Origin: a virus
DNA length: 32,467 nt
Direction: 5' to 3' (one strand)
IMG/VR virus record: IMGVR_UViG_3300044612_000694
Span: 1 to 32,467 of that record
A model generated the notes under the pieces. It was given only the letters and a program-made list of their open reading frames with translations, searched no databases and was not told the DNA's origin. Shown in pieces: positions 15,687 to 26,311 of the stretch (position 1 is the stretch's first letter; each line of letters starts with the position of its first letter). Made by a program: the position numbers and the translations under genes.

Positions 15687-16075
15687 CGCTGATGAAGGTC
15701 GAGCGCTTCAGCGTTTCGGTGACGACGGCGGCGGATGGGTCGGCGACGGCCTTTTCGCCGACCATCACCGGGGCCATCTCGTCCATCGCCTATGTCGCGG
15801 ACGGAACCAATCCCTACGACGCGACGGTCGATTTCTCGATCACCGTCGAGGCCACAGGCCAGGGGCTCTGGACGCAGTCAAATATCAGCGCGAGCGGCAC
15901 ACGCGCGCCGCGTCAGCCGACGCATGCGCAGGACGGGACGGATCGTTTCTTCACGGGCACCGGCAGCAACCACGCGGTGCCTGATCTGATCTGCCTTGCG
16001 AACGACCGCGTCAAGATCGTGCTGGCGCAGGGCGGCAACGTCAAGGTCGGCCAGTTCGTCATCACGGTGATCTGA
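15683..16075 (+). CDS. Beta-rich virion protein, unknown
   Basis: Up to 130 residues. Two starts are possible: GTG at 15683, which overlaps the previous stop (GTGA), or ATG at 15692 (MKVERFSVSVTTAADGSATA). The body is beta-rich (AISSIAYVADGTNPYDATVD, FFTGTGSNHAVPDLICLAND) and closes with VKVGQFVITVI. It looks like a small jelly-roll or Ig-like virion component. The gene abuts the head-tail connector gene by TGATG, so it is probably a head or neck accessory. No named family is recognised. Confidence 0.6.
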   Translation: MTLMKVERFSVSVTTAADGSATAFSPTITGAISSIAYVADGTNPYDATVDFSITVEATGQGLWTQSNISASGTRAPRQPTHAQDGTDRFFTGTGSNHAVPDLICLANDRVKIVLAQGGNVKVGQFVITVI

Positions 16076-16668
16076 TGCTGTCGGTGCTCGTTCCCGCGAC
16101 GTCCTCGCGCCTGACCTCGCTCGATGCGGTCAAGCGCGAACTGTCGATCTCGGGAACGAGCGACGACGCGCGGCTGCTGGCCTATATCGATCAGGCCAGC
16201 GCCGTCATCGCTGACTACCTCGGGCGTCCGCTCGGCCGCGAGACCGTTGCGGAGACGCTGCGGCTGTCAGCGGCGTCCGAGACCATCATGCTGTCGCGCT
16301 GGCCGGTGGTCAGCGTGACGAGCGTGGTCGAGGACGGCGCGACGCTCGTCGCCACCGACTACGAGATCGACCGGAGCTTCGCCTACCGGCTGTTCGATGA
16401 CGAACGCGCACGCTGGCCGGCGGTCAAGGTCATCCTGACCTACGTCGCGGGCTACGATTTGCCGGACGGCGTCGCGCCAGCTATCGAACGCGCGGCAACG
16501 CAGCTGGTGGTCGCGATGAACGCATCTCGCGGTCGCGATCCTTCGCTCCGCTCCGAGAGCGTGGAAGGCATCGGCGCGCAATCCTGGCTCGACCCGCGCA
16601 ACGGCGGCGGGCCGCTTCCTGACGGCGTCGTGGCGCTGCTCAATCCCTATCGCGAGGTCATCGTATGA
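16075..16668 (+). CDS. Head-tail connector protein (HK97 gp6-like)
   Basis: 197 residues. SRLTSLDAVKRELSISGTSD, then DDARLLAYIDQASAVIADYL and the strands LRLSAASETIMLSRWPVVSV and SVVEDGATLVATDYEIDRSF are the standard layout of the HK97 gp6/phiE125 gp8 family, whose rings extend the portal. The C-terminus ends in helices (AIERAATQLVVAMNASRGRD) and a short tail. It should form the first neck ring. The start overlaps the upstream stop (TGATG). Confidence 0.85.
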   Translation: MLSVLVPATSSRLTSLDAVKRELSISGTSDDARLLAYIDQASAVIADYLGRPLGRETVAETLRLSAASETIMLSRWPVVSVTSVVEDGATLVATDYEIDRSFAYRLFDDERARWPAVKVILTYVAGYDLPDGVAPAIERAATQLVVAMNASRGRDPSLRSESVEGIGAQSWLDPRNGGGPLPDGVVALLNPYREVIV

Positions 16669-17063
16669 GCGGCACGTTCAGCCTTGGCGATTTCTCCATC
16701 GGCGCAGCCGCGACGCAAGTCGGCGATGTTGTCGATGATCTCAGCGGCGCGCTTGCCGTCACGCTCTCTGCGCGCCTGGCCTACGGCTCGGGCGGCACAT
16801 CCTGCTATGCGGTTGTCGAGACCTCGCTCGATCAGGGCGTGACCTGGGTGCAGATCGCGCGCTTTGATTTCACGACCTCGGGGCTTCAGAAGGTGATGAC
16901 CGTTTCCGGCCTCACGCCGCGCATCGCCGCCGCGACCGCCGGTAGCCTCGCCGCCGACACCGCGCTCGACGGCACGCTGGGCGACCGGCTGCGCGCGACG
17001 GTGGTCTCGACTGGCACCTACGCCGGATCGACGGTCGTCTCGGTCCGCGCCAACGTCCGATGA
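16665..17063 (+). CDS. Head-neck accessory protein, unknown
   Basis: 132 residues, starting MSGTFSLGDFSIGAAATQVG. The middle ALAVTLSARLAYGSGGTSCY and VVETSLDQGVTWVQIARFDF is a repeated theme in phage neck-region proteins: beta strands with a YGSGG turn and a 'tSxDqGxTW' motif like that of sialidase or BNR turns. It overlaps both neighbours by ATGA, between the connector and closure genes. A structural role is likely; I cannot name the family. Confidence 0.6.
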   Translation: MSGTFSLGDFSIGAAATQVGDVVDDLSGALAVTLSARLAYGSGGTSCYAVVETSLDQGVTWVQIARFDFTTSGLQKVMTVSGLTPRIAAATAGSLAADTALDGTLGDRLRATVVSTGTYAGSTVVSVRANVR

Positions 17064-17392
17064 ACACACGCGGCGCGATTGACCGGCTCGGCCAGGTCGC
17101 GCAGCTGCGGCGGCTGACCGGGACCGGGGCGAACCAAGTCTGGCACGAGGTCACTCTGCGCGTCTTCGCGCGCCAGTTCCGCGCGCAAGAGATCGTGCCG
17201 GGGTCAGGGCTCCAGCAGGGCGACAGACAGGTCATCGCGCATCACGCCGAGATCGACGCCGCGCAATGGCCGGCTCCGCCGCGCCGCGATGACAAGCTGC
17301 TCCTGGAGGGGCGGCTCCTCAACGTGCAGTCGGTCGAGACCGTGCGCGTGGGCGAGAGCGTCGAACGCTACAACATGGTCTGCCGGGGATGA
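17060..17392 (+). CDS. Head closure / head-tail adaptor
   Basis: 110 residues. IDRLGQVAQLRRLTGTGANQ with VWHEVTLRVFARQF and the C-terminal RLLNVQSVETVRVGESVERY is the pattern of the small SH3-like beta-barrel head closure proteins (SPP1 gp16 / Phage_H_T_join type). It would bind below the connector ring and hold DNA in before tail attachment. Its place after the connector and before the tail-completion gene is the expected one. It overlaps both neighbours by four bases. Confidence 0.8.
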   Translation: MNTRGAIDRLGQVAQLRRLTGTGANQVWHEVTLRVFARQFRAQEIVPGSGLQQGDRQVIAHHAEIDAAQWPAPPRRDDKLLLEGRLLNVQSVETVRVGESVERYNMVCRG

Positions 17393-18051
17393 GAGCGTAC
17401 CGCTCGCCGCGCATCTTCGCGCGCGAGATCACGGTGGCGAGCAAGAACCTGTTCCCGGCTCAGGTCGAGGCGCTGCTCGAGGACGCCGCGCGCCGCGAGA
17501 AAGCGCGCGTGCTGGCCGAGCAGACGCAACGCGCGGGCATCGCGCCAACCACCGAGACCATCGTGGACGGACGGCGCGGCGCGCCTATCGACGCGGCGAC
17601 GGACAAGTCCACCATCATCATCGAGTACGAATACCTCCGCGAGATCGCCGCATGGCTCCTCGACACGCTGGAACGCGGGGCGGTGCGCGGGCCGACAGGC
17701 GTCTACGCGCGATCATTCATCCTGCTGGTCGATGGTGCCGAAGCTCAGGTCTCGGCGATCACGCACGACACGCAGTCCTTCGTCGTCGCGAATACGCAGC
17801 CATACGCGCGGCGGCTGGAGGTCGGCAAGACCAAGTCCGGCTCTCCGTTCGTGGTCGATGACAGCCGCTATCGCTATGTGGACAGCGTCGCGAAGGCCGC
17901 GAAGGCGCGCTTCGGCAACGTTGCGCTGGTTCGGCACACATTCGTCACCCTGTCGGGTGCATATCGTCTACGACGCGCGCAGGGCAAGCGCCGCGACCGT
18001 CAGGCCGGATCGGAGATCTCCTATCCCGGCGTCCGTGTTTCCAAGCTCTAG
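17389..18051 (+). CDS. Tail completion / neck protein (HK97 gp10-like)
   Basis: 220 residues. The N-terminal half is helical and basic (VEALLEDAARREKARVLAEQ). The middle IIIEYEYLREIAAWLLDTLE, with RSFILLVDGAEAQ and TQPYARRLEVG, matches HK97 gp10-type proteins, where a 'N..pYA..lE.G' segment is a hallmark. The C-terminus is basic. It should sit at the tail end of the neck and interact with the tail terminator. In most related phages the tail terminator gene follows at once; here about 4 kb of other genes intervene. Confidence 0.78.
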   Translation: MRAYRSPRIFAREITVASKNLFPAQVEALLEDAARREKARVLAEQTQRAGIAPTTETIVDGRRGAPIDAATDKSTIIIEYEYLREIAAWLLDTLERGAVRGPTGVYARSFILLVDGAEAQVSAITHDTQSFVVANTQPYARRLEVGKTKSGSPFVVDDSRYRYVDSVAKAAKARFGNVALVRHTFVTLSGAYRLRRAQGKRRDRQAGSEISYPGVRVSKL

Positions 18052-18062
18052 GAGCCTTCCAA

Positions 18063-18494
18063 ATGGCAGTCACGATCAGCCTGTACAACCACACGGCCAA
18101 GCTCTTCGCCGAGGGCTCCAACGTGCCGGGCGACACCTACAAGGTGAAGCTGTTCACCGCCGCGACGTTCAACGCGACGCACACGACGCTCGCGGGTGTC
18201 GGTGGCACCGAGGCCACGACGGGAACCGGGTACAACGCTGGCGGGCCGTCGCTGGCGAACGTCGCAGTCACGACGGTGACGACGAACGATGCGCGCTTCG
18301 ATGCCGATGACGTCACCCTGACGGCTTCCGGCGGCTCAATCACGGCGAGCTACGGCGTGATCTACAACGACACCGACGCGAACGATCCGCCGCTCGCCTT
18401 CATCGATTTCGACGGGTCGCAAAGCGCTGGCGCTGGAACTGATTTCAAGATCATCTGGGACGCCAACGGCATCTTCTCGTTCACGGTGGCCTGA
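18063..18494 (+). CDS. Beta-rich accessory virion protein
   Basis: 143 residues, starting MAVTISLYNHTAKLFAEGSN, with TYKVKLFTAATFNATHTTLA, then SLANVAVTTVTTNDARFDAD and a closing segment around DFKIIWDANGIFSFTVA. This beta-sandwich-like type is frequent in phages next to fibre or decoration genes; I know no assigned function. TAGGAG lies before the ATG. It opens the accessory module inserted between neck and tail terminator. Confidence 0.6.
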   Translation: MAVTISLYNHTAKLFAEGSNVPGDTYKVKLFTAATFNATHTTLAGVGGTEATTGTGYNAGGPSLANVAVTTVTTNDARFDADDVTLTASGGSITASYGVIYNDTDANDPPLAFIDFDGSQSAGAGTDFKIIWDANGIFSFTVA

Positions 18495-18496
18495 TA

Positions 18497-18943
18497 ATGG
18501 CAGACAACGTCGCAATCACTCCGGGCTCGGGCGCGATAGCCGCCGCCGACGACATCGGCGGCGTGCTATACCAGCGCGTCAAGGTCTCGCACGGCGCAGA
18601 CGGCAGTGCGACGGATACGAGCGTTTCCGATCCGCTGCCCATCGCGGCTTACGGCGAACTGATCGAAGCCATCGAGGCGATGCGGATGGCGGTACAGGCG
18701 CTGACCCGCACCATCGGTCTTGTGACGGTCGACCCGGCTACGGGGCGTCTGCGCGCCGAGGTGGTCCAAGCGACCGCCGCGAGCTTGTTGGCGACAGTCA
18801 GCATCGCGTCCAACCAGACGCTGACGACGCTGACGACGCTGGGTAACCAGACGCAGATGGGCGGCTTCAACGCGCAGGATCAGATCCCGGCGCTGATGCG
18901 GATCTCTGCTGACAACCTTCGACGCAACATCTCGGTGACCTGA
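18497..18943 (+). CDS. Accessory virion protein with helical C-terminal part
   Basis: 148 residues, starting MADNVAITPGSGAIAAADDI. The lead 'MADNVAITpGSGaxxAaDDIGGVxYQRVKVxxGxDG' is one I associate with many phage virion proteins of unknown role. The second half is Thr/Ala-rich with LIEAIEAMRMAVQALTRTIG (amphipathic helix) and ends LMRISADNLRRNISVT. It may be a trimeric decoration or fibre-base protein, the N-terminal part docking to the virion and the helix forming a coiled coil. The next gene encodes a propeller protein and is probably its partner. Inference from layout only. Confidence 0.6.
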   Translation: MADNVAITPGSGAIAAADDIGGVLYQRVKVSHGADGSATDTSVSDPLPIAAYGELIEAIEAMRMAVQALTRTIGLVTVDPATGRLRAEVVQATAASLLATVSIASNQTLTTLTTLGNQTQMGGFNAQDQIPALMRISADNLRRNISVT

Positions 18944-18945
18944 TC

Positions 18946-20385
18946 ATGGCGACAACCAACGGCAACCGGAAACTCCTCGACCTCAAGCGATGGGAGATGC
19001 TTTCGCCGTCGCCAGTCCAGACGCTGACGTCGCATTTCATCATCTCTTCAAAACACTACCGCCAGCAGCAGATGCTCTGCTACAGCGGCAATGCGGCGGC
19101 GCTTTACAACCCGAACGAGGACGGATGGGTGCTTCTGCCCAACCCCTCGTTGGCGGGAAGTTTTGGGAACGGAGCGTGCGGGGTCGCGGGCTCGTTCTCG
19201 ACCGGCACGACCGCTGGCGCATCGTTCCTGACGGCGACCGCAGGAACGACGACAACGATCACGACCAACCAGACGCTCGCGCGAGATCTGCGCGGGTATT
19301 CGGTTTATTTCGTCGGCGGAACCAACGCGGGCAAGTTGAAGACGATCGCCAAGAACACGATTGGCGCGAACGCTGTCATCACATTTGAGGGCGCGGCGGA
19401 GGCTGTCGCCTTCGACGCGACGTCTCAGTATCGCTTGAAAGCCCCCGTCTTCTTCGTTCTTAGCGCGGGCACGCTCGCGAGCGGAGCGTTCAAACGGTAC
19501 GACTTCGCGACGAATAGCTGGGTGACGCTGGTCAACACCGGCTTGCCCGGCACCTGGGGCACGGACGGAAAGCTGGTCTCCACGCCTGCGTGGATCGGCA
19601 CAGGCTTCAAGAGCTTCGCCACCGGGACGGCGACGGCCGGGGCATCCACGACGCTGACGAACAGCGCGAAGGCGTGGACAACGAACCAGTGGACCAATTT
19701 CCAGATTCGCATCACCGCGGGCACGGGCGCGGGGCAGATCCGTACGGTGGCGAGTAACACCGGAACTGTAATCACCGTTTCAAGCGCCTGGACGACGACA
19801 CCTGACGCGACCTCGCAGTATTCGCTTGAGGGGAACGACGACTACATTTACGCGATGGGCAACAACGCTGTGGCGCTGTATCGCTACAGCATCAGTGCGA
19901 ATACATGGTCCACGCTTTCCCCCGGGGTGGCGCGCGGCGCGGCGCCGGGCGCGGCTCTGTCCGGGAACTGGATTTACAGTGTTTCAGCGTCCGATTGGAC
20001 AGATGAAAGCGCAATCCAAAACGGCCGCTATATTTATTCGTTTCGAGGTGGCGCGTCGGCAAACCTTGATCGGTACGATATCGCGGCGAATAGCTGGGCC
20101 TCCGTAACGTATGCCCCGGCCGCGGAAACTTTCACAACGGGCACAAAGTACGCCTACAGCAAGGATTCTTTATACATCCAGCAGAACGCGACGGGGCGCT
20201 GGTTCAAATACGACTTCGCGCAAAGCGCTATGGACGGGTGGACGACGATGTTATACCCGAACGGCTCCGCGATTGTCGGCGACACCGCATTTGACGTGAC
20301 GTACAAAGACGGCGCGACCGAAATCGATTATATCCATATGATTTTGAACACCAGCACCGTGCATGTTCGGCAGATGGTGATCTGA
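18946..20385 (+). CDS. Kelch-like beta-propeller virion protein, possible receptor-binding protein
   Basis: 479 residues. Several blades end in kelch-like motifs: FKRYDFATNSWVTL (182-195), LYRYSISANTWSTL (311-324), LDRYDIAANSWASV (374-387), and a fourth near 420 (KYDFAQSAMDGWTTM). Two homologous inserts of about 70-80 residues lie at 86-164 and 226-295; both go from an Ala/Gly/Thr-rich lead through a 'G.NAG/G.GAG ... T(V/I)A.NT' core to DATSQY-L. Wobble positions are more AT-rich than in neighbours (for example near 20030-20180), which suggests separate acquisition. A propeller with insertions fits sugar or surface binding. The gene lies far from the main tail-tip cluster, so it may decorate head, neck or tail shaft. 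Confidence 0.65.
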   Translation: MATTNGNRKLLDLKRWEMLSPSPVQTLTSHFIISSKHYRQQQMLCYSGNAAALYNPNEDGWVLLPNPSLAGSFGNGACGVAGSFSTGTTAGASFLTATAGTTTTITTNQTLARDLRGYSVYFVGGTNAGKLKTIAKNTIGANAVITFEGAAEAVAFDATSQYRLKAPVFFVLSAGTLASGAFKRYDFATNSWVTLVNTGLPGTWGTDGKLVSTPAWIGTGFKSFATGTATAGASTTLTNSAKAWTTNQWTNFQIRITAGTGAGQIRTVASNTGTVITVSSAWTTTPDATSQYSLEGNDDYIYAMGNNAVALYRYSISANTWSTLSPGVARGAAPGAALSGNWIYSVSASDWTDESAIQNGRYIYSFRGGASANLDRYDIAANSWASVTYAPAAETFTTGTKYAYSKDSLYIQQNATGRWFKYDFAQSAMDGWTTMLYPNGSAIVGDTAFDVTYKDGATEIDYIHMILNTSTVHVRQMVI

Positions 20386-20546
20386 TGACCATCTCAGACC
20401 TGATCACGCTCGCGCTCGCGCGGCTGGCAAACCTGACGGCGCAGCGCACATCGGCTGTGACGCTCGGGGATGTCGCCCGCATCGCCCAGCTCGACACCGA
20501 GATCGCCGAGACCGAGGTCACGCTGGCGAAGCTGAAAGCAGTCTAG
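20385..20546 (+). CDS. Small coiled-coil ORF
   Basis: 53 residues, MTISDLITLALARLANLTAQ then RTSAVTLGDVARIAQLDTEI and a closing helix. The start overlaps the stop of the propeller gene (TGATG) and the product is a pair of amphipathic helices. It resembles short trimerisation or registration peptides that follow fibre genes in some phages. Support is coding phase, overlap and sensible sequence; the function is unknown. Confidence 0.55.
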   Translation: MTISDLITLALARLANLTAQRTSAVTLGDVARIAQLDTEIAETEVTLAKLKAV

Positions 20547-20564: not shown

Positions 20565-22073
20565 ATGCCGCAGCTACAGGGTCTCACTCTCCTATTCGGC
20601 TCGCTCTATGGCGCGGGCGCGGCGATTATCGCCGCGCCGACTGCCACCATCACTGTCGTCGCCAATGCGCCGACAATTCAGGCCACGACGGGCGCAACGG
20701 TCACTGTTCCTGTCGCCGCGATCAGCCTCGCGGCTGACGCACCCAGCCTCGCGGCGGGCAAGAGTATCACAGTCCCTGCCGCGACGATCACGCTCGCCTC
20801 GACGGCTCCGTCGATCAGCGCGGGCAAGCGCATCGACGCTCCCGCCGCGACGATCACGCTCGCGGGCCTTGCGCCGACCATCCAGGCCGCGACGGGTGCG
20901 TCCATCGTCGTTCCGGCGGCGACCATCTCGCTCGCGGCCAGCGCGCCGAGCCTCGCAGCGGGCAAGAGCGTCGCCGTTCCAGCCGCTACAATCAGCCTCG
21001 CGGGCAATGCCCCGACGATCTCGGCGGGCAAGCGCGTCGTCGTCCCTGCCGCTGCCCTGCTCATGGGCGGCGAGGTTCCTGCGATCAGGACGGGCAAGTC
21101 CGTCACCGTTCCGGCCGCGACCATCAATCTCGCGGGCAACGCTCCGTCGATCAGCGCGGGCAAGCGTGTCGCGGTTCCGGCGGCGAACATCACGCTTTCG
21201 GCATCTGCCCCGACCGTCTCGGTCGGCGATGCCGTCACGGTTCCTGCCGCCACGATCACGCTGGCGGCGATTGCGCCGTCGCTGGCAGCGGGTAAGTCCG
21301 TCGCGGCACCCTCGGCCACCATCGCGCTCTCTGCCGCGCCACCGACGATCCAGGCGGCGTCCGGCATCAGTATCGCGCCGCCGACCGCCACCATCCTCCT
21401 CGGAGGCGAAGCGCCGTCGATCAGCGCGGGCAAGTCCATCACCATTCCGCTCGCCTCGGCTCAGGTTCTCGCGGCGCTTGCGCCGCAGCTGGCGACGGGC
21501 AAGTCCATCTCGGTCCCTGCCGCCACCATCACACTGACCGCCGCGTCTCCGACGCTCGCAGCGGGCAAGGCGGTCGAGGTCGCCGCTGCGGCCATCGCCA
21601 TCGGCGGCATCCCGCCGCGCATCCAACTTATCGCGCCTCCCGGAACGTTGCGCGTCATCCGCGATGCCATCAGGACCGCCTGGGATGCGCGCTGGCCGCA
21701 CGGAACGACCTACCGGGTACTCTGGCAGGTCAACGACAACGAGAGCGTCCCTGAGCCCGGCGAGGCGCGTGCGTGGGTGCATGTGATGATCGACTTCGAC
21801 GGCGAGGATGTGCGCGCCTATGCCGGCGGTCGCGAGGCATCTGACCGCGAGTGGCGCGGAACGGTCGAGATCCGCGTGGTCGCGGAGACCGGCTATGGCG
21901 ACGACGCCGCGCTCGACCTTCTCGATGACGCGGTCAGCGTTTACCGCTCGCGTCGCGAGGCGGGCCTGTCGTTCATCGAGGGCTCGACCGAGATCTTCGA
22001 CAGCGCGACCGAGGACGGCGCGTGGTTCATTCGCGGCACGATGCTGCCCTGGACCTACGAGTACCGCGCATGA
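20565..22073 (+). CDS. Tandem 22-residue repeat protein fused to a tail-terminator-like domain
   Basis: 502 residues. After a short hydrophobic lead, residues 24-359 consist of about 14 tandem repeats plus one degenerate unit, mostly 22 residues long, with consensus PAATITLAxxAPSISAGKSV (plus two residues). The C-terminal 140 residues, from TLRVIRDAIRTAWDARWPHG on, are clearly homologous to the next gene, the tail terminator: the WDARWPHG-TYRV-W block, PGE, DLLDxAV and GAW--RG--P match in order. The repeats should form stacked strands, perhaps an elongated fibre or filament. The fusion suggests attachment at the head-tail junction or tail shaft through the terminator fold. I know similar Ala/Thr-rich repeats from other phage proteins without function. 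Confidence 0.75.
   Translation: MPQLQGLTLLFGSLYGAGAAIIAAPTATITVVANAPTIQATTGATVTVPVAAISLAADAPSLAAGKSITVPAATITLASTAPSISAGKRIDAPAATITLAGLAPTIQAATGASIVVPAATISLAASAPSLAAGKSVAVPAATISLAGNAPTISAGKRVVVPAAALLMGGEVPAIRTGKSVTVPAATINLAGNAPSISAGKRVAVPAANITLSASAPTVSVGDAVTVPAATITLAAIAPSLAAGKSVAAPSATIALSAAPPTIQAASGISIAPPTATILLGGEAPSISAGKSITIPLASAQVLAALAPQLATGKSISVPAATITLTAASPTLAAGKAVEVAAAAIAIGGIPPRIQLIAPPGTLRVIRDAIRTAWDARWPHGTTYRVLWQVNDNESVPEPGEARAWVHVMIDFDGEDVRAYAGGREASDREWRGTVEIRVVAETGYGDDAALDLLDDAVSVYRSRREAGLSFIEGSTEIFDSATEDGAWFIRGTMLPWTYEYRA
20634..21641 (+). repeat. In-frame coding tandem repeats, about 66-bp period
   Basis: Units start with Pro codons at residues 49, 71, 93, 117, 139, 161, 183, 205, 227, 249, 273, 295 and 318, each about 66 bases (two of 72, one of 69). 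Recurrent DNA words are GCCGCGACGATCACGCT and GCGGGCAAGCGC. Units 3, 6 and 8 are the most alike. Such arrays can gain or lose units by recombination. Confidence 0.85.
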
Positions 22074-22504
22074 GCCTCCGCAGCACCATTCGCACCGAGA
22101 TCAAGGCAGTCTGGGATGCGCGGTGGCCGCACGGCGAGACCTATCGCGTGATCTGGCACGAGAACGCACACCCCGATACGCCGACGCCTGGCGAGGTGCA
22201 GCACTGGCTGCATTTGCATACCGAGTTCAGCCGCGAGGAGATGCGCGCATTCGGCGACGGCTCGCTCGCCAACGAGCGGCTCTGGTTCGGCGCTGTTGCC
22301 GTTCGCGTGTTTTCCGAGGTCGGCATCGGCGAGGACGTCACTCTCGACCTCCTCGACGCCGCCGTCGTGGCTCTCCGCGCGCGGCGCGCTGGCAACCTGA
22401 CCTTCGCGGGGCCGATCATCGGCATCGCGGATATCGCTAGATCGAACGGCGCGTGGTATGGTCGCGGCGCGTCGATCCCGTTTCAATATCGCTTCCAGGG
22501 CTAA
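22070..22504 (+). CDS. Tail terminator protein
   Basis: 144 residues, MSLRSTIRTEIKAVWDARWP.... An alpha/beta protein with an N-terminal helix, the segment TYRVIWHENAHPDTPTPGEV, DLLDAAVVALRARRAGNLTF and C-terminal RGASIPFQYRFQG. Length, order and position (directly before the tail tube gene) match phage tail terminators (lambda gpU / HK97 gp11 role), which cap the tail tube and join it to the head. It is a paralogue of the C-terminal domain of the preceding repeat protein. The start overlaps that gene by ATGA. Confidence 0.75.
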   Translation: MSLRSTIRTEIKAVWDARWPHGETYRVIWHENAHPDTPTPGEVQHWLHLHTEFSREEMRAFGDGSLANERLWFGAVAVRVFSEVGIGEDVTLDLLDAAVVALRARRAGNLTFAGPIIGIADIARSNGAWYGRGASIPFQYRFQG

Positions 22505-22516
22505 GGAGACCCGATC

Positions 22517-23773
22517 ATGCCGATTTCCGAAGGCGTGCAGTCACGCATCGTCTACAAGGCGTATTCCAGCGGGTCGATCACGGCCAACAGCGAGCCGGAT
22601 ACTGCGACCGACCCCGGCACGTCCGGCGGTCAGGTGCTGCGGCGGGTCTCGTCGTCGCTGAACTTGGTCAAGGACAGCTACCAGTCCGAGGAAATCAGGA
22701 CCGACCGGCAGATCGCGGACTTCCGGCACGGGTTGCGACGCGTCGAGGGCTCGATCTCGGGCGAACTGTCGCCCGGAACGCAGTTTGAGCTTCTCGTCGC
22801 CGCGCACCGCGACTCGGCGGTGTCGGCGCTGTCGCTGAGCAACACGCAGTTCACCTCGGTGACCAGCGACAACTCGACCTCGGCCTTCGTCTTCACTGCT
22901 GGCGACCCGGTGACCTCGGGGTTGCGTGTCGGCGATATCATCCGCTTCGGCACGCTCGCCGCGACGGCGAACAACGACCGCAATTTCGTGATCCGGTCCT
23001 TTGGTGGCACGAGCAACCGCACGGTGACGGTGTCGCCCGCGCCGACCACTGACGCGGTGGCCGACACCAGCTTCACCGTGACGCGCCCCGGCAAGACCAC
23101 CATTGTCCCGGCCAGCGGCTTCACCGCGCGCAAGTTCGGCATCGAGGAGTACCGCGAGGATCTTGACCTCTCGCGCCTCTTCACCGAATGCCGCGTGTCC
23201 GGCTATTCGCTGTCGCTCCCGGCCACCGGCCTCTCGACTGTGGAGATCCCGTTCATGGGGCGCAACGCGGTCTCGCTCTCGGCGGGCAGCGCGCCCTATT
23301 TCACGGCTCCCACCGCCGCGACGACGTCCTCGGCATGCGCCTCGGCCAACGGCCTGATCCTGTCGCCGGATGCTGGCTCGTCGCCGCTCGGCATCGTCAC
23401 CGGCATCGATATCGCGCTTGATCTCGAGGCCGAGATGCAAGCGGTGATCAACCAGAACATCGCGCCCGAGATCTTCCTCGGCCGGGCGAACGTCACCGGC
23501 ACGGTGTCGGCGTTCGTTGAGGACTTCGCCTTGTTCAATGCGTTTTTGAACGAGAGCGAGCTTCAGCTGATCGTGCGCGTGGACAGTGGTTCGGCGGCGA
23601 ATGCCGATGCCATCTGCATCTACCTGCCGCGCGTCAAGCTCGGCGGAGCGGACATGCCGTTGAGTGGCGCGAATGGTCAGACGATATCGCTGCCGTTCCA
23701 GGCGCTCCGCTACACCGGCAGCGCGGCGGGCCGCGACACAACCACCATTCGCATCCACGACACGGCGGCCTGA
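22517..23773 (+). CDS. Major tail (tube) protein
   Basis: 418 residues, long for a tail tube protein. The lead VKDSYQSEEIRTDRQIADFR and HGLRRVEGSISGELSPGTQF is a recognisable tube-protein signature of proteobacterial siphophages. Two insertions, an Ig-like part around residues 105-200 (LRVGDIIRFGTLAATANNDR, TVTVSPAPTTDAVADTSFTV) and a later beta domain (SGYSLSLPATGLSTVEIPFM), probably decorate the tube surface. The C-terminus QTISLPFQALRYTG is again tube-like. It polymerises around the tape measure. AAGGAG precedes the ATG. It is followed by the chaperone pair, as expected. Confidence 0.87.
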   Translation: MPISEGVQSRIVYKAYSSGSITANSEPDTATDPGTSGGQVLRRVSSSLNLVKDSYQSEEIRTDRQIADFRHGLRRVEGSISGELSPGTQFELLVAAHRDSAVSALSLSNTQFTSVTSDNSTSAFVFTAGDPVTSGLRVGDIIRFGTLAATANNDRNFVIRSFGGTSNRTVTVSPAPTTDAVADTSFTVTRPGKTTIVPASGFTARKFGIEEYREDLDLSRLFTECRVSGYSLSLPATGLSTVEIPFMGRNAVSLSAGSAPYFTAPTAATTSSACASANGLILSPDAGSSPLGIVTGIDIALDLEAEMQAVINQNIAPEIFLGRANVTGTVSAFVEDFALFNAFLNESELQLIVRVDSGSAANADAICIYLPRVKLGGADMPLSGANGQTISLPFQALRYTGSAAGRDTTTIRIHDTAA

Positions 23774-24207: not shown

Positions 24208-24533
24208 ATCACCGTTTCGACCTCGACCTGCCGCGCAAGGGCGGTCGCAAACGCGATCACCTGGAGAGTGTCGCGCGGCAGCTAGGACGCCGCCCTGCGG
24301 GCCTCGACGGGCCACAGCTGCCCGCCTGGGGCGAGCACATCTGGTCGGCGTGGCTGGATCTGCACCAAGGTCGCCGCGTCGGCTTCAACGGTGCCGAGCC
24401 GCTGTCTTGGGCCGATCTCGACGCATGGTCTCGGTTGACCGGCGCGGAGATGCGGCCTGACGAGGTGGCGCTTCTGATGCGGATAGATCGCGAGTTCTTC
24501 GCCGTGCGCGGCGAGATCGAGGGGAAGAAATGA
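24171..24533 (+). CDS. gpT-like extension, expressed as gpGT fusion by -1 frameshift
   Basis: Read in the -1 frame after the slippery site, the sequence continues LVERDGELIAFAHHRFDLDL... for 120 residues to the stop at 24531-24533. No plausible independent start with a ribosome site exists near the beginning. The fusion has about 252 residues (132 from gpG and 120 here). The C-terminal part contains WGEHIWSAWLDLHQGRRVGF and AWSRLTGAEMRPDEVALLMR IDREFF, a pattern of phage T-domains that contact the tube protein. The stop overlaps the tape measure ATG (ATGA). The upstream open frame back to 24078 is the shadow of gpG. Confidence 0.85.
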   Translation: MVERDGELIAFAHHRFDLDLPRKGGRKRDHLESVARQLGRRPAGLDGPQLPAWGEHIWSAWLDLHQGRRVGFNGAEPLSWADLDAWSRLTGAEMRPDEVALLMRIDREFFAVRGEIEGKK

Positions 24534-26311
24534 TCAACGCGCCGAAAGAATCGGTCCTCCGCGCTGGCCTCGACGCGAGCGAGTACACGCGCGGCGCGCA
24601 GGAGATTGACCGGGCGAACACCGAGATCCTGGCGAGCAGCGGCCGGGTCGAGCAGTCTCAGGAGAAGATGACCCGCTCGCTGGTCTCGTCTTCGTCCAGC
24701 ATGGATCGCCTCCAGGCATCGCTGGACAAGGGCTTCGCGTCCCAGTTGCGCTACGAGCAGATCGTGGATCGCGTCAACTCCGCGATGGAGCGCGGACGCA
24801 TCTCGCAGGAACGCGGCGCGCAGATCATCAGCCTCGCACAGCAGCGCTACATGTCGGCCGCGACTGCGACTGCGGCGATGGGGGCGGCGACTGCGGCGGC
24901 TGCGGCATCGAGCAGACAGTTCGGTTTCGTCGCGCAGCAGTCCGGCTACCAGCTGGGCGACTTCGCCGTCCAGGTCGCGAGCGGTCAATCTGCGATGGTC
25001 GCGTTCATCCAGCAGGGTTCACAGTTCCTCGGCATCTTCGGGGCGTTCGGCGCAATCGCTGGTGCTGCGCTCGCCATCGGCGGCGGCATCTACATGATGT
25101 TCGACAAGATGGCCGAGAATGCGAAAGCGGCGACAGACGAGGTCTCTTCCTTGACGGAAGAGATCAAGCGCATGAACGAGGAAAGCGCGAAACGCGGAAG
25201 AGGACAGACCGGCATTCGCGCGAATGTGCGGCTTGAGAGCCTGATGGCCGAGCGCAATCGCCTGACCGGCATGATGCCGACAGGAGGCGGCGCAGCGACG
25301 TCGAGCGAGATGTCAGGAATAGTCGAGGCTCAAGCGGCGGCAAACGTCGCGGCCATTCAGTCGCAGATCGACGCCATCAATAAGCTGATCCGAGAACATG
25401 ATCGGCTCGTTGAGGAACAAGAGCAAGTGGACATGAGCACCGCCAACTTGAAGCGAAGCGGCGAGGAGTTTGAGGAGCAGAAGAAGCGCGAGGCCGAGGC
25501 TATCCGCGACGCCGCTCGCGCGCAGGAAGAAGCCGAACGCGCGCGCCAGCGGTTCCTATCCGATGTCATGTCCCTAGAAAACACCCTCGACCCGCTGACC
25601 GCCGCGACACGCCGCTGGGCCGACCAACAGGCGCTGCTGGCCCAGGCGCTCGACGCCGCGATCATCAGCCAGGAGCGGTACAACGAGCTCGTCGCCATGT
25701 CCGACGAGGCGTTCCGAAAGGCCACCGAGAAACAGACCGAATACCTGACCGGGATCGAGAAGCAGTCGCGTCAAAACGAGAACCTCGCGCGCGATCTCGG
25801 CCTGTCGTTCCAGTCCGCTTTCGAGGACGCGATCTTGCGCGGTGAGAAGCTGCGCGGCGTGCTGGCCGGGATCGCGCAGGACATCGCGCGCATCATCCTG
25901 CGCCAGACGGTGACGACGCCGCTCGCGAACCTCGTCATGGGCGGGCTCTCCAGCGCCTTCGGCGGCCTATTCGGCGGCGGGCCAGGCGACATTCGCGGGC
26001 CGGGCGGCTCGACCAGCATCCCGTTCGGCGGGCCTCGCGCTCTCGGCGGGCCGGTCGAGGCGGGCAGCGCCTATCTGGTCGGGGAGCAGGGGCCGGAACT
26101 GTTCATGCCCGGTCAGTCGGGCCGCATCATCCCGAACGGACAGACCGGCTCCACCGTGGTCAATCAGACAATCCAGATCAGCGTGGGCGTCGCGCAGACC
26201 GTGCGCGCCGAGATCGCCGCGCTTATGCCGGCGATCAAGCGCCAGACCGTCGATGCGGTGGCGGACGCCAGGATGCGCGGCGGGTCGTTCGCCGCCGCGA
26301 TGGGAACCTGA
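24530..26311 (+). CDS. Tail tape measure protein
   Basis: 593 residues. It begins with helices, then has QQSGYQLGDFAVQVASGQSA (136-155), typical of tape measures of this phage group, and a hydrophobic segment GIFGAFGAIAGAALAIGGGI (168-187). A charged coiled-coil middle follows (EEFEEQKKREAEAIRDAARA), then a hydrophobic Gly-rich part (LVMGGLSSAFGGLFGGG) and the terminal motif AYLVGEQGPELFMPGQSGRI seen in many tape measures. At about 1.5 angstrom per residue the tail would be close to 90 nm. GAGGGG lies before the ATG. It sets tail length and may cross the host membrane during DNA entry. Confidence 0.92.
   Translation: MINAPKESVLRAGLDASEYTRGAQEIDRANTEILASSGRVEQSQEKMTRSLVSSSSSMDRLQASLDKGFASQLRYEQIVDRVNSAMERGRISQERGAQIISLAQQRYMSAATATAAMGAATAAAAASSRQFGFVAQQSGYQLGDFAVQVASGQSAMVAFIQQGSQFLGIFGAFGAIAGAALAIGGGIYMMFDKMAENAKAATDEVSSLTEEIKRMNEESAKRGRGQTGIRANVRLESLMAERNRLTGMMPTGGGAATSSEMSGIVEAQAAANVAAIQSQIDAINKLIREHDRLVEEQEQVDMSTANLKRSGEEFEEQKKREAEAIRDAARAQEEAERARQRFLSDVMSLENTLDPLTAATRRWADQQALLAQALDAAIISQERYNELVAMSDEAFRKATEKQTEYLTGIEKQSRQNENLARDLGLSFQSAFEDAILRGEKLRGVLAGIAQDIARIILRQTVTTPLANLVMGGLSSAFGGLFGGGPGDIRGPGGSTSIPFGGPRALGGPVEAGSAYLVGEQGPELFMPGQSGRIIPNGQTGSTVVNQTIQISVGVAQTVRAEIAALMPAIKRQTVDAVADARMRGGSFAAAMGT

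Follow-up and report, generated by a model that had tools for sequence, protein, structure and literature searches.

The locus examined here raises the question of why a siphophage should carry two adjacent tail-terminator genes, one of them fused to a long array of short repeats, and what the fused product might do. The window, that is, the whole stretch of DNA analyzed (32,467 bases of an uncultured virus record), has a siphophage morphogenesis gene order. Large terminase, portal, protease, major capsid protein, adaptor, head closure and several variable genes are followed by two terminators, tail tube, a chaperone candidate, tape measure, distal tail protein and a J-like protein. The tape measure (window 24530-26311) is 52–97% identical within the clade and far more variable than the tube or the chaperone; close relatives may differ in tail length or ejection. 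The features under discussion are given below, with the identities of cassette genes measured against the window over 34 non-identical loci.

16075..17392, + strand: neck genes, namely adaptor (16075-16668), an unassigned gene (16665-17063) and head closure (17060-17392); phrog_442 and phrog_161
17389..18051, + strand: conserved gene preceding the cassette, 220 aa; phrog_16336, median 97% identity in the clade
18063..18494, + strand: phrog_644 protein, conserved first gene of the putative appendage cassette; phrog_644 match
18497..18943, + strand: variable cassette gene, 148 aa, with the N-terminus 'MADNVAITPGSG' in relatives; 32-95% identity or missing
18946..20385, + strand: Kelch/beta-propeller-like variable gene, 479 aa; Kelch_4 match at 6.5e-6, 26-82% identity or missing
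20385..20546, + strand: variable 53-aa gene, immediately 5′ of the fused gene where the fused protein begins with MPQLQGL; 40-87% identity
20565..22073, + strand: fused protein, 502 aa, ATG start; 22-residue repeats plus a tail-terminator paralogue, kept in IMG/VR relatives
20637..21638, + strand: repeat array, residues 25-358; lag-22 periodicity and X-Pro spacing
21639..22073, + strand: C-terminal tail-terminator domain, residues 359-502; phrog_179, predicted model (pLDDT 90.3) and Foldseek
22070..22504, + strand: stand-alone tail terminator, 144 aa; phrog_179, in the canonical place before the tube, as in outgroups
22517..23773, + strand: tail tube protein; Phage_tube_2 match at 1.9e-24, phrog_290

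The fused protein is composed of a ~24-residue N-terminal segment, repeats that extend to residue 358, and a 144-residue C-terminal domain. Self-identity of the repeat region is 0.379 at a lag of 22 residues, against a maximum of 0.206 in 1000 shuffles over lags 5–49, and 0.288 at a lag of 44. The 22-residue unit is built from two 11-residue halves, 'VxVPAATITLA' and 'xxAPSISAGKS', each of which contains an X-Pro motif; the 28 such motifs in the window's array correspond to ~14 units. The array begins near residue 25, a few units are 23–24 residues long, and the final unit is degenerate. The preliminary description of this DNA had placed about 14 repeats of 22 residues upstream of a terminator-like domain, and this layout, coordinates included, is borne out by the lag-22 periodicity and by the similarity of the C-terminal domain to the neighboring terminator. 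The regular beta stack that it envisaged for the repeats did not emerge. In the full-length AlphaFold model, which retains the terminator fold, the repeats have a pLDDT of only ~33–56 and form short strands, so that the array could be a solenoid, an intertwined fiber or a flexible chain. A PDB sequence search with the repeats returned only weak S-layer matches (E 0.03). An internal start that would free the C-terminal domain was also considered and rejected: the in-frame TTG at position 21648 of the window is a CTG in 38 of 47 relatives.

By family assignment and predicted fold, residues 359–502 are a tail terminator. This region is 44.5% identical over 137 residues to the product of 22070-22504, and both match the phrog_179 'tail terminator' family (E 9.8e-8 and 6.1e-8, respectively). 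A model of the fused domain, based on 39 aligned relatives, has a mean pLDDT of 90.3 and gave 49 PDB fold matches at E ≤ 1e-3. Nearly all of these are terminators, collars or tail caps from phages or phage-like particles, the exceptions being a few entries whose names are uninformative or different (2gjv, 2l25 and 4acv, for example). The matches include lambda gpU and the terminators of T1, FCWL1, T5, Mu and pyocin, with the top TM-scores being 0.73 (FCWL1) and 0.72 (T1). A library of viral protein structures produced 331 matches at E ≤ 1e-3 and pointed the same way. The terminator-like fold that had been proposed for residues 360–502 is thus predicted with high confidence. A PDB sequence search with the fused-domain profile yielded only chance antibody matches, and a Pfam match to Laminin_G_3 (E 0.011) inside the domain was judged spurious given the fold result.

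The position directly before the tube gene is occupied by the stand-alone paralogue, and the fused gene lies one place upstream. In each of the 46 locus entries examined (some contigs being entered twice), the two genes overlap through the sequence ATGA, which fits co-expression of the pair. A scan of IMG/VR found the fused domain in 54 contigs. The repeats are in frame in every contig with sufficient upstream sequence, the stand-alone gene follows the fused gene wherever downstream sequence is present, and the frame of the fused gene is open in all entries checked. Outgroup phages, whose tube proteins are 48–58% identical, have a single terminator homologue, encoded immediately upstream of the tube gene in 34 of 34 loci, indicating that the terminator was duplicated within this lineage. 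Fused domains and stand-alone domains fall into two adjacent clades of the tree, each fully supported, with L143/L145 as nearest sequences. The branch uniting the two clades has a support of 85/79, making the timing of the duplication likely rather than certain. Both copies are under purifying selection, with dN/dS estimates of ~0.12 (fused domain) and ~0.14 (stand-alone terminator), and behave like working proteins. The fused protein is almost certainly a conserved, duplicated, repeat-bearing terminator. The "terminator variant" of the preliminary description can be specified as a retained paralogue next to an ordinary terminator.

A tblastn search of cultured phages detected no relative of either the fused domain or the stand-alone terminator. 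The sole relative in the genome collection, L115 (DBCG01000005.1), is a contig of an unclassified Pseudomonadota MAG (UBA964), which provides a hint at the host group. No duplicated or fused tail terminator is reported in the literature searched, in which subscription journals are poorly covered, making this weak evidence of novelty.

The region upstream of the fused gene is hypervariable. The adaptor, head closure, phrog_644 protein, both terminator domains, tube (96%) and chaperone have median identities to the window of 93–99% across the 34 non-identical loci, and the repeats are 53–90% identical to those of the window. Some of the 148-aa, Kelch and 53-aa genes are missing from some loci, with others in place or alongside. 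The replacement genes in relatives encode glycine-rich proteins (Gly_rich_2, E 9.5e-12), a protein matching the 'Podophage GP4 fiber I protein gp80' family (E 2.3e-13), and LamG-like proteins with the C-terminal ending NRPPLIGD and a match to a virion structural PHROG (E 6.9e-28); the term LamG-like is here a reading of the sequence, with no Pfam match above the cut-off. Other cassette genes of relatives encode unknown proteins, and small chaperone-like ORFs, such as one of 85 aa, also occur. These weak domain matches suggest that the upstream cassette genes encode putative adhesins.

The fused protein itself varies along with its neighbors. The number of X-Pro motifs per array ranges from 12 to 33 across relatives (~6–17 units), so that the length of the putative stalk differs almost threefold. 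Three types of N-terminus are found, MLGSAPLAS, MLRVR and MPQLQGL, and each occurs with a single kind of gene upstream, an association that holds in 25 of 25 distinct sequences. Across these types, the C-terminal repeats resemble each other more than the N-terminal repeats do, a drop in identity toward the N-terminus that is expected from cassette exchange by recombination inside the repeats. Given this pattern, linkage between the N-terminus and the upstream gene is by itself no proof of binding, as recombination blocks alone can produce it. The N-terminus 'MLG[SF][AS]PLAS[TA]PL' is common to the fused proteins of L011, L013, L025 and L031 and the unfused proteins of L076 and L077, despite their different C-terminal anchors.

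The repeats are also found without a terminator, in L076, L077, L078, L080 and Gordonia phage Kampe (gp39). These proteins share the repeat style of the fused protein, with identities of 41–47% in the four contigs and 29% in Kampe, and their genes lie in different places: in the tail-tip region in L076, 5′ of the head genes in L077 and among minor tail genes in Kampe. The J-like protein of L076 is only 32% identical to that of the window. Downstream of its gene is a phrog_644 protein that is 85% identical to the window's, with a propeller, the unfused repeat protein and a BppU_N protein as neighbors. In Kampe, a phrog_644 relative (39% identical) is encoded directly upstream of gp39, and in L077 the unfused repeat protein is encoded 5′ of the head genes, with a separate terminator on the same contig. 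From this distribution, the appendage cassette looks mobile. The arrangements in L076, Kampe and L077 indicate a repeat stalk that is used with several anchors, the anchor in the window's clade being a spare terminator.

The phrog_644 protein is possibly a docking or decoration protein. Its relatives adjoin repeat proteins in unrelated phages, and in the satellite phage MiniFlayer a relative, gp6 (L188:4764-5198), is encoded directly after the major capsid gene.

A neck-anchored stalk that presents exchangeable adhesins is, in our view, the best explanation of the fused protein, and one that we modestly favor. Gene order and the hypervariable, adhesin-like neighboring genes lend indirect support to a neck appendage. 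The fused protein is probably a virion component located at the neck; that it presents exchangeable adhesins is a proposal toward which we lean only slightly. According to this model, a siphophage lineage would have duplicated its tail terminator, with one copy remaining the normal tail-tube cap and the second being joined to a repetitive, probably beta-rich stalk from a mobile appendage cassette. The fused terminator-fold domain would be part of the hexameric terminator ring at the neck, or lie beside it, and could either share one mixed ring with the ordinary terminator or form a second ring. The stalk would exit from the N-terminal helix, pointing outward, and its N-terminal tip would hold an adhesin-like protein encoded by the variable genes just upstream. 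Neck fibers of this kind, with exchangeable tips and changeable stalk length, could mediate reversible contact with the host or the surroundings.

Two features of the gene transfer agent RcGTA bear on this model. The first N-terminal helix of the RcGTA terminator touches the stopper (PMC7296036), so that the stalk would be rooted close to where stopper and terminator meet; from there, we infer the outward direction. The RcGTA head fiber has an N-terminus with repeated Ile/Leu-Gly that binds all five subunits of its base protein (PMC7296036), and we speculate, by analogy, that the 'PLAS' repeated at the N-terminus in one stalk type could be a similar docking peptide.

The fused protein could instead be chiefly an assembly variant, altering tail completion, head-tail joining or length control, with a stalk that is not adhesive. 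Such a role would be in keeping with a terminator paralogue that is encoded directly before the terminator and tube and is under purifying selection. However, an ordinary terminator already occupies the canonical place, and strong variation in repeat number and N-terminus would be odd for a part that must fit a tube with a median identity of 96%. The stalk N-terminus also goes with the adhesin-like neighbors, and we regard a primary role in assembly as unlikely. Another proposal is that the protein is a chaperone or scaffold absent from the virion, which would bind cassette proteins or tails under assembly through its terminator domain and be released before maturation. The small chaperone-like ORFs in the cassette of relatives, among them the 85-aa ORF, are consistent with this idea, but surface structures, not chaperones, are where long repeat arrays of beta type that vary in length are typically seen, and the Kampe repeat protein is annotated as a minor tail protein, albeit by similarity only; a non-virion factor thus appears improbable. 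That the array serves mainly as a recombination substrate for swaps of the upstream cassette, the fused protein being a by-product of little function, would account for the variable repeat number and for the fall in identity from C-terminal to N-terminal repeats across types, but is very improbable, as the fused domain has a dN/dS of ~0.12 and its reading frame is intact in every entry checked.

Terminators with other extensions also occur among the outgroup phages. The sole terminator of L164 (L164:5323-5922; same in L166) has six N-terminal 'xTxWDxG' repeats of ~seven residues each, and that of L182, which is 57% identical to it, is without them. The terminator of L171 (L171:1664-2854) has a C-terminal LamG-like domain, matched by Laminin_G_3 at E 1.2e-5 and 25.9 bits, where the Pfam cut-off is 27.6. 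L185:3001-4128 has a terminator part 96% identical to that of L171 and a different C-terminal domain, a comparison that identifies a domain swapped on a tail terminator; the L186 terminator (66% identical) has no C-terminal extra domain. A tblastn search of cultured phages gave no relative of the L164 or L171 terminators. Based on the extended terminators of L164/L166, L171 and L185 in addition to the window's clade, which are few as independent examples, tail terminators may be a recurrent and unrecognized neck display platform that swaps N- or C-terminal stalks or lectin-like domains in different phages, a generalization that we offer tentatively and with some doubt.

If the neck-stalk explanation is true, the combination of a duplicated terminator, a length-variable stalk and hypervariable adhesin-like genes would represent another neck mount for host-contact devices. 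The label "tail terminator" could then mask proteins that contact receptors in uncultured phages, and host-range determinants would be worth seeking at the neck as well as at the tail tip.

Siphophage tail terminators such as lambda gpU, T1 gp42 and RcGTA g8 (PHROG 179) are alike in family and predicted fold to the fused domain, and the gene order neck, terminator, tube is common to them and the window. They are, however, single-copy proteins of ~130–160 residues, whereas here a second copy bears a repeat array of ~180–410 residues. Neck appendages are known in a few well-studied phages, where they are built from dedicated collar proteins. For example, T4 gp wac, XM1 gp40, phi29 gp12 and Milano gp13 are neck appendages or decorations for which a part in sensing the host and attaching to it has been proposed (PMC10491603). 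These collars, whiskers and spikes are formed by unrelated proteins around the neck rather than by terminator paralogues, and the literature searched contains no description of a neck fiber of the terminator-plus-stalk kind.

The neck passage structure (NPS) of the lactococcal P335 and 936 phages consists of a collar bearing neck-mounted fibers with variable carbohydrate-binding tips and is non-essential in TP901-1 (PMC6669499, PMC4493119). If the neck-stalk explanation is right, the NPS would be the most similar system in its working. The anchors differ: the NPS is a protein of its own that combines a BppU-like N-terminal collar with coiled-coil fibers and is reported to be attached to the portal, whereas the anchor in the window would be a terminator domain. 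Domain searches of the fused protein gave no BppU_N match, that domain being found only beside the unfused repeat protein of L076, and no carbohydrate-binding tip domain above the cut-off. A lactococcal-type NPS would be expected to have its tip domain in the same protein, whereas in the relatives of the window the candidate tips, LamG-like and glycine-rich proteins, are encoded by separate upstream genes.
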